NCBI GenBank assembly: GCA_018287875.1
Contig: JAGVVL010000002.1
Coordinates: forward strand, 3,100,001 to 3,164,000
Source of the DNA: Nigrospora sphaerica
Taxonomy: Eukaryota > Ascomycota > Sordariomycetes > Amphisphaeriales > Apiosporaceae
Length of the DNA: 64,000 nucleotides
Reading direction: 5' to 3'
This document shows positions 14,599 to 21,166 of this stretch, piece after piece (the first letter of the stretch is position 1; every line of letters begins with the position of its first letter). The position numbers and the translations under genes were made by a program. A model generated the notes under the pieces. That model was given only the letters and a program-made list of their open reading frames with translations. It was not told the DNA's origin and ran no database searches.

Positions 14599-16065
14599 TC
14601 AGCGACCTCGACCACCGCCCCTCCCCCTTCCTCTTCCTCCCCGGCCGCCGCCCCGGCCACCCTTCTGACCCCTTCCGCCCGACTTTTTCGACCCGGGGTG
14701 GGATTTGGCATCAAAGCGCTCGTGTAGCCTCTCCTCGCCGAACGCCATCTCGGTGAAGCGCAAGTAGCTGGTCATGCCGCCGTCCACGACGGCAACGATA
14801 ACGTTGCGCCAGCCGTGTTTGAGCCTCTGGTACATATGCCCGATTCCAGGACCACCGGCACCGCTCTTGGAGTCGGGCGGATCGTACGGTGTCGAGTCCA
14901 CCAGCGACGACATCTCCGAGAGGGTCGGGACCGACGTGGTACGTGCGTCAACGACGGCAATGCGAAAGTCTGGAACCGGCAGCTTGGACTTGGTGAAACC
15001 GGGCCGCGACTTGAAGACGTGAAACGCCACCTTGAATGGTTCCTCGGGGGGAGGCTGGCTCGGTTCCGGGGAGGGCCTGTGGCGAGGGATGAGGTGGAGC
15101 TGGTGGTAAATTGGTTGATAAGAGCGGTAGAGGCCCGGCTTGACAAGGGGCCCCGACGACGGATGATTCCGAGGCATATCTGACGTTGCTGACGAGGGCG
15201 TGACGAGGGAAATAAGCCACTGCCACAGGCTTGTCACTGGCGGGTCCGCCGGGCGTTCATTCAGAGGGGTGGCCCGCGAGACAAGGTAGCCTGATCGCCG
15301 CAGATTCGAATAGACCTGGTACTTTTCCAGCGTGATCTTGCCTCTGTCGTCTTCGTCGCCGATGAAAAGGGCATACGCAGCCTGGAGACTGAGGGGCGGG
15401 CCCCATTCAAAATCATCATCGCCCGTTCTTTCTTCCTTCTCGGCGGCCTCTCCGACTTCCCTAGCGACCGGGAATATTTCCTCGACCCCCCGGCGGGGCC
15501 AGCGCAGTAGTAGATCCCCTCTCTCGACGAGAAACAGCGCTTCCTCGGGCAGCAGCCACGTCTTGTCCCAAGCCGGAGTCGTCTTGGCCTGTCCCTTCAA
15601 GACGCGGCCCATGCTTTTCACCATGGCGCCCGATTCTTTTTCCAGCACCACGACGCGATCCCTCTTCCACAGGCCCAGCGGCTGCGTGTCCTCGTCCGGC
15701 TCGCCCGCGAAGTGCTCGGGGAAATACCACCCGACCATGTAGTTGCCGGGCGCGTGGACTCGCGTGTAGCTGAGCACCTCGTGCATGGCCCTCCGACTGG
15801 ACTCAAGCGTGTTTTCCTGCAGGCGCGTGCCGTGCGACTCGAAGTCCTTTTCGCCCCGGCGCAGCGTCTTTCCCGAGACATGCGGCGCCTTTTTCTTCTG
15901 CGCGGCGTCGGAGCCGCCAGGCAGGGCCGCGGCAAACTTGCGGAAATCGGATACTACATCGTCGCCGTCTTGCTCGTCTGCAATTTCGGGGTTCGAGACG
16001 TCCCCATGCGCGGCGATTGGAGCCGGGGGCACGGCGGTGGGATCTTCGTCGTCGTCGTAAGGCAT
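14599..16065 (-). CDS. SEN54: tRNA-splicing endonuclease subunit Sen54
   Basis: Intronless, 488 aa. Sen54 is a structural subunit of the heterotetrameric endonuclease (Sen2, Sen15, Sen34, Sen54) that cuts pre-tRNA introns; the catalytic residues sit in Sen2 and Sen34. Residues about 71-190 carry the Sen54 N-terminal domain: GEKDFESHGTRLQENTLESS, then AMHEVLSYTRVH, a WYFPE core and WLLPEEALFLVERG followed by LLLRWP. The C-terminal half includes ALFIGDED and KITLEKYQVYSNLRRSGYLV, then FHVFKSRPGFTKSKLPVPDFRIAVVD, the degenerate nuclease-fold part. The last 30 residues are a Gly/Arg (RGG-type) tail, an RNA-binding type of sequence. The start at 16065 (MPYDDDED) is the first Met followed by the expected acidic N-terminus; an upstream in-frame ATG at 16245 would add unlikely sequence. 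A tRNA gene lies head to head 346 bases away. Confidence 0.93.
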   Translation of the reverse strand: MPYDDDEDPTAVPPAPIAAHGDVSNPEIADEQDGDDVVSDFRKFAAALPGGSDAAQKKKAPHVSGKTLRRGEKDFESHGTRLQENTLESSRRAMHEVLSYTRVHAPGNYMVGWYFPEHFAGEPDEDTQPLGLWKRDRVVVLEKESGAMVKSMGRVLKGQAKTTPAWDKTWLLPEEALFLVERGDLLLRWPRRGVEEIFPVAREVGEAAEKEERTGDDDFEWGPPLSLQAAYALFIGDEDDRGKITLEKYQVYSNLRRSGYLVSRATPLNERPADPPVTSLWQWLISLVTPSSATSDMPRNHPSSGPLVKPGLYRSYQPIYHQLHLIPRHRPSPEPSQPPPEEPFKVAFHVFKSRPGFTKSKLPVPDFRIAVVDARTTSVPTLSEMSSLVDSTPYDPPDSKSGAGGPGIGHMYQRLKHGWRNVIVAVVDGGMTSYLRFTEMAFGEERLHERFDAKSHPGSKKSGGRGQKGGRGGGRGGRGRGRGGGRGR

Positions 16066-16410
16066 CGCGTTGTGGAAGAAAAGATGGGACGAATAATAGC
16101 CTGTTGTGCAGACACAATTGATTGGGTGGGTATAGCTGTCAGCGGGGAACCGCGGAACAGACCGCGCCACGTTCCGCCTATAGCTCATACATACCACAAC
16201 AAGGTGCTCAAGTACTTTGTACAGAGCCAAGTAGCTGGGAACCACCGGTAAAATATTGACAATGACAATTTTGAAAATAGTCTATTCCACCTCATTATAG
16301 CCTTTGTTCAGCCAACTCTGCCCCAACTCTAACCCATTTGCATCCATTCTCTCTTGTTTTTCTAAGTTAGCTTTTATAAGTGGAGATAAGAAGCTAGTCT
16401 GTCACAATAA
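16066..16410. other. Divergent spacer between SEN54 and tRNA-Leu
   Basis: This 345-base spacer must hold the SEN54 promoter and the upstream flank of the tRNA gene. It is AT-richer than the coding DNA, especially at about 16250-16410. No TATA box is assigned with confidence. Confidence 0.45.
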
Positions 16411-16576
16411 GGCAAGATGGCCGAGTGGTCTAAGGCGTAAGCGATCCCTCTCAGCCCTCAACTTCAAGTTCTGGTTATACTAACAATTGTAACAGGTTGG
16501 ATTTAGGATCTGAAGTTCGCTTCTCTCCATTCCTCCAATCAATTCATTGGCGTGGGTTCGAATCCCACTCTTGTCA
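16411..16576 (+). tRNA. tRNA-Leu (anticodon UAG) with two interruptions
   Basis: Acceptor strands GGCAAGA (16411-16417) and TCTTGTC (16569-16575) pair fully with one G-U. The D arm is GCC...GGC with the A box TGGCCGAGTGG. The T arm GTGGG-TTCGAAT-CCCAC includes the B box. A long class-II variable arm (16539-16551) fits leucine. If 16437-16495 is removed, a perfect anticodon stem forms: TTGGA (16497-16501) with TCCAA (16534-16538). The loop TT-TAG-G gives anticodon UAG, and a normal tRNA intron of about 25 nt follows position 37 (about 16508-16532). The 59-nt insertion sits at position 25/26, after the D stem. It starts GTAAGC, has TACTAAC at 16478-16484 and ends ACAG, which is exactly a fungal spliceosomal intron. 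The gene could be functional if that piece is removed, or an inactivated copy if not. Confidence 0.85.
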
Positions 16577-16596: not shown

Positions 16597-16601
16597 TTTT
16601 T
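16597..16601 (+). terminator. RNA polymerase III terminator (T5)
   Basis: A run of five T residues 20 bases after the discriminator base of the tRNA-Leu gene is the usual Pol III stop signal. Confidence 0.8.
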
Positions 16602-20596: not shown

Positions 20597-21166
20597 TCAG
20601 GCCAGCGGATTGGCGTGAATGGTGACGCGTTCCACGAAAGCCTTCTCCTTCGGGCGGTTCTTCTTGTCTATTTCAAGGGCCTCGAGTTTGGAGAGGGTGA
20701 CCAGGCTGTCGTCGCCGATGAGCTTGCCGAAGACGGTGTTGAGGCCGTCGAGGTGCGCCGCCTTGTCGAAGAGGACAAAGAACTGCGACCCGTTGGTCCC
20801 GGGGCCCTTGTTGGCCATGGAGATGATGCCGCGGGCGTTGTGCTTCAGAGTGGGCCGGATCTCATCCTCAAAGGGGCGGCCCCAGATGCTCTGGCCGCCC
20901 TTGGGGTTCTCGGGCGTCGGGTTCGCCGGCCCCCCTGTCTGGATCATGAAATTGGGGATGAGACGATGGAAGGGCGAGTTGTCATAATACCCGGACGCGC
21001 AGAGGGCGAGGAAATTCTACGGCGCCGAGTTAGTGACGACACGCAGGAGGGAAACGCGCCACTTAAGATTTCAGCGAGCGTCACCTACCTCGGCCGTTTT
21101 GGGAACACTTTCACAGAAAACCTCAATCTTGAGGTCGCCAAAGTTTGTATGCAGCGTGACCGACAT
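20597..21166 (-). CDS. PPIL3: Cyclophilin-type peptidyl-prolyl cis-trans isomerase, PPIL3/Cyp10 subfamily
   Basis: Two exons, 21089-21166 and 20597-21016, separated by a 72-nt intron (gtaggt...cgtag) and joined in phase to 165 aa. The N-terminus MSVTLHTNFGDLKIEVFC is the hallmark of the PPIL3 (cyclophilin J) subfamily. The fold continues through NFLALCASGYYDNSPFHRLI, FMIQTG, GGQSIWGRPFEDE, ISMANKGPGTNGSQFF and a C-terminal VTIHANP. The catalytic Arg and Phe (FHR and QFF) are kept. The substrate-loop Trp of archetypal cyclophilins is replaced by the LDGLNTVFGK context usual for this subfamily. PPIL3 proteins are associated with spliceosomes in animals; that role here is inference. The length equals the family norm. 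Confidence 0.93.

Follow-up and report, generated by a model that had tools for sequence, protein, structure and literature searches.

A tRNA-Leu(UAG) gene with two interruptions

The locus described here lies in a 64,000-nucleotide stretch of the Nigrospora sphaerica genome, the whole of which we refer to as the window, and it holds a tRNA-Leu(UAG) gene in which a 59-nt insertion with the signals of an mRNA intron precedes an ordinary tRNA intron (Table 1). The window covers positions 3100001 to 3164000 of contig C12. An earlier reading made from the letters alone, the sequence-only reading, had placed this insertion after the D stem, with GTAAGC at its start and ACAG at its end. We confirmed this placement, the last five bases being AACAG. 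The motif TACTAAC, also reported in that reading, is indeed present near the 3' end, but it lies 11 nt from the end and not 12 nt as first given. The junction shows the usual one-base ambiguity and can be drawn as GGC/G or as GGCG/.

TABLE 1 Features of the split tRNA-Leu genes, their surroundings, and the U6 and U3 genes of the same assembly; coordinates without a contig name are window positions
Feature	Position	Strand	Basis or remark
SEN54, tRNA-splicing endonuclease subunit	14599..16065	-	Pfam PF12928, 7.9e-20
TATA-like element, -36 to -32 from the tRNA	16375..16379	+	Sequence
tRNA-Leu(UAG) gene, entire transcript body, 166 nt	16411..16576	+	Sequence and ARAGORN
Leu(UAG) exon 1, acceptor 5' strand and D arm, positions 1-25	16411..16436	+	
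Leu(UAG) A box, TGGCCGAGTGG	16418..16428	+	Sequence
Spliceosomal-type intron, 59 nt, between positions 25 and 26	16437..16495	+	GTAAGC / TACTAAC / AACAG
Branch-site motif TACTAAC in the 59-nt intron	16478..16484	+	
Leu(UAG) exon 2: G26, anticodon stem 5' strand TTGGA, loop TTTAGG (anticodon TAG)	16496..16507	+	
Ordinary 37/38 tRNA intron, 25 nt	16508..16532	+	ARAGORN
Leu(UAG) exon 3: C38, anticodon stem 3' strand TCCAA, variable arm, T arm, acceptor 3' strand	16533..16576	+	
Leu(UAG) B box, GGTTCGAATCC, intact	16555..16565	+	Sequence
T5 Pol III terminator	16597..16601	+	Within CTTTTTGC, a context shared with several other Leu genes
Split tRNA-Leu(UAA), L092	C12:4141000-4141152	-	Two-mismatch place of the 5' Leu pattern
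L092 intron, 59 nt, at 55/56 in T loop and B box	C12:4141018-4141076	-	GTAAGT…TACTAAC…CCAG
U6 snRNA gene L077	C12:3548859	+	Above Rfam cut-off
U6 snRNA gene L078	C9:780997	-	Above Rfam cut-off
U3 snoRNA gene L112	C12:2147890	-	Above cut-off
U3 snoRNA gene L113	C7:2457677	-	Above cut-off

Taking the insertion out was predicted to restore a tRNA-Leu(UAG) that still contains a 37/38 intron, and this held: ARAGORN then called tRNA-Leu(TAG) with a 25-nt anticodon-loop intron, and the stems are intact. On the unspliced locus the same program reported no tRNA under its default settings and a spurious tRNA-Ala(CGC) in intron mode, while the Rfam tRNA model gave 18.5 bits, below its cut-off of 29. In the exons all of the stems pair, and the A box, the B box and the terminator are intact. 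The A box was called against the consensus TRGYNNARNNG, and the B box likewise against its own consensus. Exon 1 is one base different from the Leu(CAG) sequence. Over the mature tRNA there are 18 differences from Leu(CAG), among which six stem pairs are altered on both sides (four in the anticodon stem and two in the variable arm) and none is broken. The 37/38 intron may be cut poorly, since its A-I pair (position 32 with intron position -3) is U·U in the strict register; this position pairs in 8 of 8 Leu(CAG) and Leu(CAA) genes.

Transcription by Pol III is suggested by the A and B boxes, the TATA-like element and the T5 terminator. The T5 run lies at +21, the split Leu(UAA) gene described below has a T6 run at +10, and the other leucine genes have T runs within 32 nt in 15 of 15 cases. 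The split Leu(UAG) gene stands head to head with SEN54, the start of which is 345 bp upstream on the divergent strand. SEN54 has 837 homologous proteins at an E value of up to 0.001 among 7976 scored candidates, and the best organism-named ones, among the matches listed (120 of 837), are from Xylariales, which points to a filamentous ascomycete in or close to this order as the host. The seeming functional tie between a tRNA-splicing endonuclease gene and a split tRNA gene may be a coincidence.

The 59-nt insertion as a probable spliceosomal intron

The Leu(UAG) insertion has the marks of a U2-type intron, namely a GTRNG 5' splice site, a CTRAY branch site and a YAG end. Under a loose definition (GTRNG, YAG, and CTRAY ending 8 to 20 nt before the end), 2 of 400,000 shuffles of the insertion qualified. 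Scanning all of the 59-mers of the window (63,941 per strand) with this definition gave two places on the forward strand and none on the reverse, and a strict definition (GTAAG, ACTAAC, CAG) gave one and none, respectively. That single strict place should be the insertion itself, since the insertion fits the definition. As judged from its sequence, the insertion can with high confidence be called spliceosomal in form.

For comparison, 14 candidate introns of protein genes were collected from 84 kb; they were kept from 33 by the presence of CTRAY and are thus partly selected for the very feature compared. These putative host introns are 45 to 93 nt long with 8 to 20 nt between branch motif and end, and the Leu(UAG) intron, at 59 nt and 11 nt, falls inside the range of this CTRAY-selected set. 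TACTAAC is the displayed branch motif in none of the 14, while both tRNA introns carry it; it occurs five times in the 84 kb, counting both strands. The numbers are small, but the motif may reflect selection for strong signals where coupling to Pol II is lacking. A likely native intron of 72 nt (GTAGGT…CACTAAC…CCGTAG) lies at window positions 21017 to 21088 on the reverse strand, in a cyclophilin-like gene that we take, by name, to be PPIL3-like.

Relatives of the insertion were sought throughout the genome, as the sequence-only reading had proposed. At E values of up to 10 the Leu(UAG) insertion matched itself alone, with no parent intron, and the same was true of the insertion in Leu(UAA). 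Introner-like elements are a source of new spliceosomal introns in fungi. Such elements occur as many near-identical copies, whereas each of the two tRNA introns matched itself alone, and neither fits this class. A common origin of the two introns was rejected, as 266 of 500 shuffles scored equally well and the likeness is limited to the splice signals.

Leucine tRNA genes of the assembly

The leucine genes of the 51.6-Mb assembly were searched from both ends. A 19-base D-arm pattern allowing up to two mismatches matched 59 places (9 exact and 50 mismatched), versus 23 for the same pattern reversed, and the nine exact places are six Leu(CAG) genes, two Leu(CAA) genes and the split Leu(UAG). 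A 28-base 3' pattern allowing up to three mismatches matched 14 places, versus none for the control, these being the six Leu(CAG) genes, the split Leu(UAG) and seven Leu(AAG) genes. In all six Leu(CAG) and both Leu(CAA) genes AAGGC/G is followed directly by the anticodon stem, and the seven Leu(AAG) genes are likewise free of an insertion at 25/26. A second Leu(UAG) gene is absent from the 59 places of the 5' search and from the 14 of the 3' search; the proposed hunt for copies without the insertion thus found none with either pattern.

Two screens were applied to the 50 mismatched places, one asking whether a B box lies within about 190 nt and the other whether a perfect acceptor partner stands downstream. 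Four are tRNA genes: two bacterial Ser genes on contig C19 (L044 and L107), a nuclear Ser(TGA) gene (L103) and a Leu(UAA) gene (L092). In another four, which look like chance, an acceptor partner is present without a B box, and the remaining 42 have no partner. An Rfam tRNA search of the assembly, in which 63 of 1243 candidates were scored, gives an incomplete census. Among the nuclear tRNAs of the 41 of 66 Rfam hits that were fetched there is neither a Leu(UAA) nor a Leu(UAG), and the 25 of 66 hits outside that reading lie on contigs C19, C20, C21, C22 and C24. Within this incomplete census, the pattern and Rfam searches found no intact nuclear copy of either gene, such as would mark the split one as a redundant pseudogene. 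A Leu(AAG) tRNA, read as IAG, should decode CUA too. In three open reading frames of the window, two of them taken from stop to stop and therefore approximate, 10 of 85 leucine codons are CTA and 1 is TTA.

Contig C19 (836,366 bp) carries many tRNA genes of bacterial type, 28 of the 66 listed Rfam tRNA hits, and might represent either an endosymbiont with a reduced genome or contamination in the assembly.

A second split gene, tRNA-Leu(UAA)

The Leu(UAA) gene L092 is also interrupted by 59 nt, at a different site from that in Leu(UAG). Its intron has the GTAAGT, TACTAAC and CAG expected of the U2 type, with 10 nt after TACTAAC, and its removal leaves a perfect T stem (GTGCG/CGCAC) and a perfect acceptor stem (GCTATCA/TGATAGC). 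ARAGORN calls Leu(TAA) once the gene is spliced and nothing when it is unspliced. The 26-base 5' end of L092 has one match in the assembly at up to three mismatches, and its intact 25-base 3' end, searched in the same way, has none. A D-arm pattern of the Leu(AAG) type matched 19 places (5 in controls), comprising the 7 Leu(AAG) genes and 12 others. Of these 12, the two that were read, L055 and L117, hold no tRNA; the other ten are three-mismatch places. The Leu(TAA) gene on C19 (L013) is bacterial in kind. Within the searches made, L092 is thus the only gene found that we would assign to a nuclear Leu(UAA).

The codon UUA cannot be read by the leucine anticodons CAG, CAA, AAG or UAG. With no other nuclear decoder of UUA found, the Leu(UAA) gene should be essential, and a dead copy is unlikely. 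It has an A box and a T6 run, and its B box is split by the intron, with no convincing replacement seen nearby. The split B box counts against reading Leu(UAA) as a Pol III gene with a spliceosomal intron.

Introns in the U6 genes of the same genome

An Rfam search for U6, with 47 of 2132 candidates scored, gave three hits, two of them above the cut-off; the third (L079) is a degenerate copy below it. Both genes above the cut-off have an intron at GATA/CAGAGA, of 53 nt (GTGAGT…GCTAAC…CTACAG) and 51 nt (GTGAGT…ACTAAC…CTGTAG). The Rfam match runs into the insertion, and the exon boundaries were read by hand against the conserved U6 sequence. With introns in both of these genes, this fungus must already use its spliceosome on a Pol III transcript. 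The two U3 snoRNA genes above the cut-off show no intron-sized gap, and the model matched them end to end over 285 and 287 nt. A U3 intron is described as present in the vast majority of Pezizomycotina examined, in the excerpted text of one study (PMC5832005).

A proposed processing route and its alternatives

We consider it probable that the insertion in Leu(UAG) belongs to the U2-type spliceosomal introns, that it lies in a tRNA gene transcribed by Pol III, and that the spliceosome removes it. That the gene is spliced and used is likely, and it is the Leu(UAA) gene and the U6 introns that carry most of the weight here. Pol III would transcribe Leu(UAG) from its A and B boxes, perhaps with help from the TATA-like element, and stop at T5. 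The U1 and U2 snRNPs would recognize GUAAG and UACUAAC on the uncapped pre-tRNA, and excision of the 59 nt by the spliceosome would restore the stack of the D arm and the anticodon arm. Only after that step could the Sen endonuclease gauge the mature domain and excise the 37/38 intron, with ligation and end trimming last. Leu(UAA), with its intron in the T loop, would take the same route. We infer Pol III transcription, the splicing itself, the order of the steps and the function of the mature tRNA. The spliceosome is placed first because Sen54 is described, in an excerpt of the literature (PMC4033280), as a ruler that measures from the mature domain, which the insertions interrupt.

Folding of the unspliced Leu(UAG) RNA was modeled with and without a forced cloverleaf. 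In the forced cloverleaf the 5' splice site begins with four bases whose probabilities of being unpaired are 0.88 to 0.96, followed by a fifth at 0.43; for the final five bases of the branch motif the values are 0.79 to 0.97. The last G of the intron is paired in both folds (unpaired 0.12 in the free fold and 0.02 in the forced cloverleaf). The free ensemble lies 6.7 kcal/mol below the forced cloverleaf, and its minimum-energy fold breaks the D stem and partly pairs the 5' splice site. The paired last G and the partly hidden 5' splice site count against the spliceosomal reading. By this model, the unspliced RNA may misfold, which cuts both ways.

Among the explanations offered in the sequence-only reading, a spliceosomal intron emerged as the best supported, with the same kind of intron in both above-cut-off U6 genes and, independently, in Leu(UAA). 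A killed gene copy had also been offered. An intron-like sequence would then have landed in Leu(UAG) and been tolerated since Leu(IAG) and Leu(CAG) cover the codons. Seven Leu(AAG) and six Leu(CAG) genes are present, CUA is perhaps read by IAG, leaving Leu(UAG) possibly dispensable, and the lack of an A-I pair in the 37/38 intron also fits a decaying gene. A dead or dying gene is nonetheless unlikely, as this is the only Leu(UAG) gene found and not one of many synonymous copies, its stems all pair, its A box, B box and terminator are intact, and the parallel Leu(UAA), the only nuclear UUA decoder found, cannot easily be dead. It is also rather doubtful that the same intron is removed by the spliceosome from a Pol II transcript, for example one started in a promoter region shared with SEN54, with the tRNA trimmed out afterward. 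The divergent SEN54 345 bp away makes a bidirectional promoter conceivable, and the split B box of Leu(UAA) is easier to accept if Pol II is responsible, but the A and B boxes of Leu(UAG) are perfect, and T5 at +21 and T6 at +10 sit as the T runs do near all 15 of the other leucine genes. A chance resemblance, in which an arbitrary insertion happens to look like an intron, has nothing in its favor beyond the size of the search space. The rarity of such matches among shuffles (2 of 400,000 under the loose definition) and the recurrence of the signals in Leu(UAA) and in both above-cut-off U6 genes make it barely credible.

The other proposal, a noncanonical tRNA intron cut by the Sen endonuclease, would have its parallels in archaea, red algae and nucleomorphs. 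It was examined by scoring bulge-helix-bulge structures, defined as a 4-bp helix between two 3-nt bulges, together with a count of outer-helix pairs. At the exact Leu(UAG) junction the predicted structure has 1 of 4 central pairs and no outer helix, and one base over it has 0 of 4 and again no outer helix, so the check suggested for this proposal went against it; the Leu(UAA) junction has 2 of 4 central pairs and no outer helix. The ordinary 37/38 intron of Leu(UAG), taken as a control, also has just 1 of 4 central pairs, and a weak central helix therefore does not by itself exclude Sen, but this control has a 7-bp outer helix, which makes the outer helix the more telling part. When the register of the Leu(UAG) insertion is shifted by up to three bases, six registers reach 3 of 4 central pairs, two of them with an outer helix of 5 or 6 bp as well, but cutting in these two would make the tRNA 2 or 4 bases too long. 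Precedent exists in the excerpted literature, where 25/26 is a known archaeal intron site, introns away from 37/38 occur in a red alga and in nucleomorphs (PMC4090602), and many nucleomorph introns lack a defined bulge-helix-bulge (PMC3978253). Cleavage by Sen would, however, leave GTAAG, TACTAAC and CAG in both genes unexplained, and we regard it as very improbable.

Returning to the spliceosomal intron, it is probable that two leucine isoacceptors, among them the sole nuclear decoder found for UUA, cannot be made without two unrelated splicing machines, the spliceosome and then Sen, with introns colonizing such genes and persisting in them.

Relation to known systems

Introns of tRNAs and introns of mRNAs are usually treated as separate worlds with separate machines. 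The findings suggest that in this fungus the mRNA-splicing machine also makes some tRNAs. The mRNA-type introns of fungal U6 genes (in fission yeast and others) are alike in that a spliceosomal intron sits in a short, structured Pol III RNA. Canzler and colleagues reportedly surveyed such introns in fungal U6 snRNA genes in 2016. In U6, however, the host RNA belongs to the spliceosome, whereas the host here is a tRNA that also needs Sen splicing. Because a tRNA lies outside the spliceosome, the argument made for U6, reverse splicing near the catalytic bases, is not directly transferable. The U6 RNA of fission yeast is spliced by the spliceosome, as stated in an excerpt of the literature (PMC10484740). 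Introns of mRNA type in fungal U3 snoRNA genes (PMC5832005) and spliceosomal introns in ascomycete rDNA and Rhodotorula U2 (PMC2586383) also interrupt noncoding RNAs but, in the excerpts that describe them, belong to other RNA classes. In 2017, according to the excerpted text, no small structured RNAs other than U3 and U6 were known to carry introns frequently (PMC5832005).

Ectopic tRNA introns occur in archaea, Cyanidioschyzon merolae and nucleomorphs. These introns resemble the present case in lying outside 37/38, sometimes beside a canonical intron, and in archaea at 25/26 (PMC4090602, as excerpted). They differ in that those of archaea and C. merolae are cut by the splicing endonuclease at sites of the bulge-helix-bulge type, and none is described, in the excerpted sources, as GT-AG with a branch site. 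For nucleomorphs the excerpted text states that the mode of splicing is unknown. A 2014 review names, in its excerpted part, nucleomorphs and one red alga only as eukaryotes with noncanonical tRNA introns (PMC4090602). Among the papers listed by searches of titles and abstracts, with most subscription papers outside their reach, none describes a nuclear tRNA gene with a spliceosomal intron.

If the spliceosomal reading is correct, the spliceosome can work on Pol III tRNA precursors that are uncapped and very short; in Leu(UAG) the first exon is just 26 nt long, and in Leu(UAA) the last exon measures 18 nt. These would be natural substrates for testing what the spliceosome requires, and they would represent a new place for intron gain, in which spliceosomal introns can colonize and persist in tRNA genes even inside a B box. 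Some apparently missing tRNA isoacceptors would be explained, since tRNA finders miss or misname split genes of this kind. Translation of rare leucine codons would be tied to the activity of the spliceosome, the U6 RNA of which is itself made by splicing.

Searches for further cases

The insertion was sought in other sequences with a degenerate pattern of the D arm followed by GTRWG, which gave one match in viral contigs, a viral tRNA without the insertion, and one match in genome contigs, a Flavobacteriaceae tRNA-Ser without the insertion. Two stretches of viral contigs matched a SEN54 pattern and neither is a relative. Plasmids gave no match. Further split tRNAs were sought in the assembly with a pattern of CTAAC, AG and a B box, which misses tRNAs that have a long variable arm and a 37/38 intron, the split Leu(UAG) included. 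The 20 matches, versus 24 in reversed controls, contain no new case. Ten of them are one near-identical repeated tRNA, which we take for Glu(CTC) and whose D arm contains CTAAC, seven look like chance, and three lie on C22 and C24, taken as mitochondrial. The tRNA hits on C22 recur at a spacing of about 91.3 kb, and again on C24, a pattern that would fit an assembly running more than one full turn around a circular mitochondrial genome.
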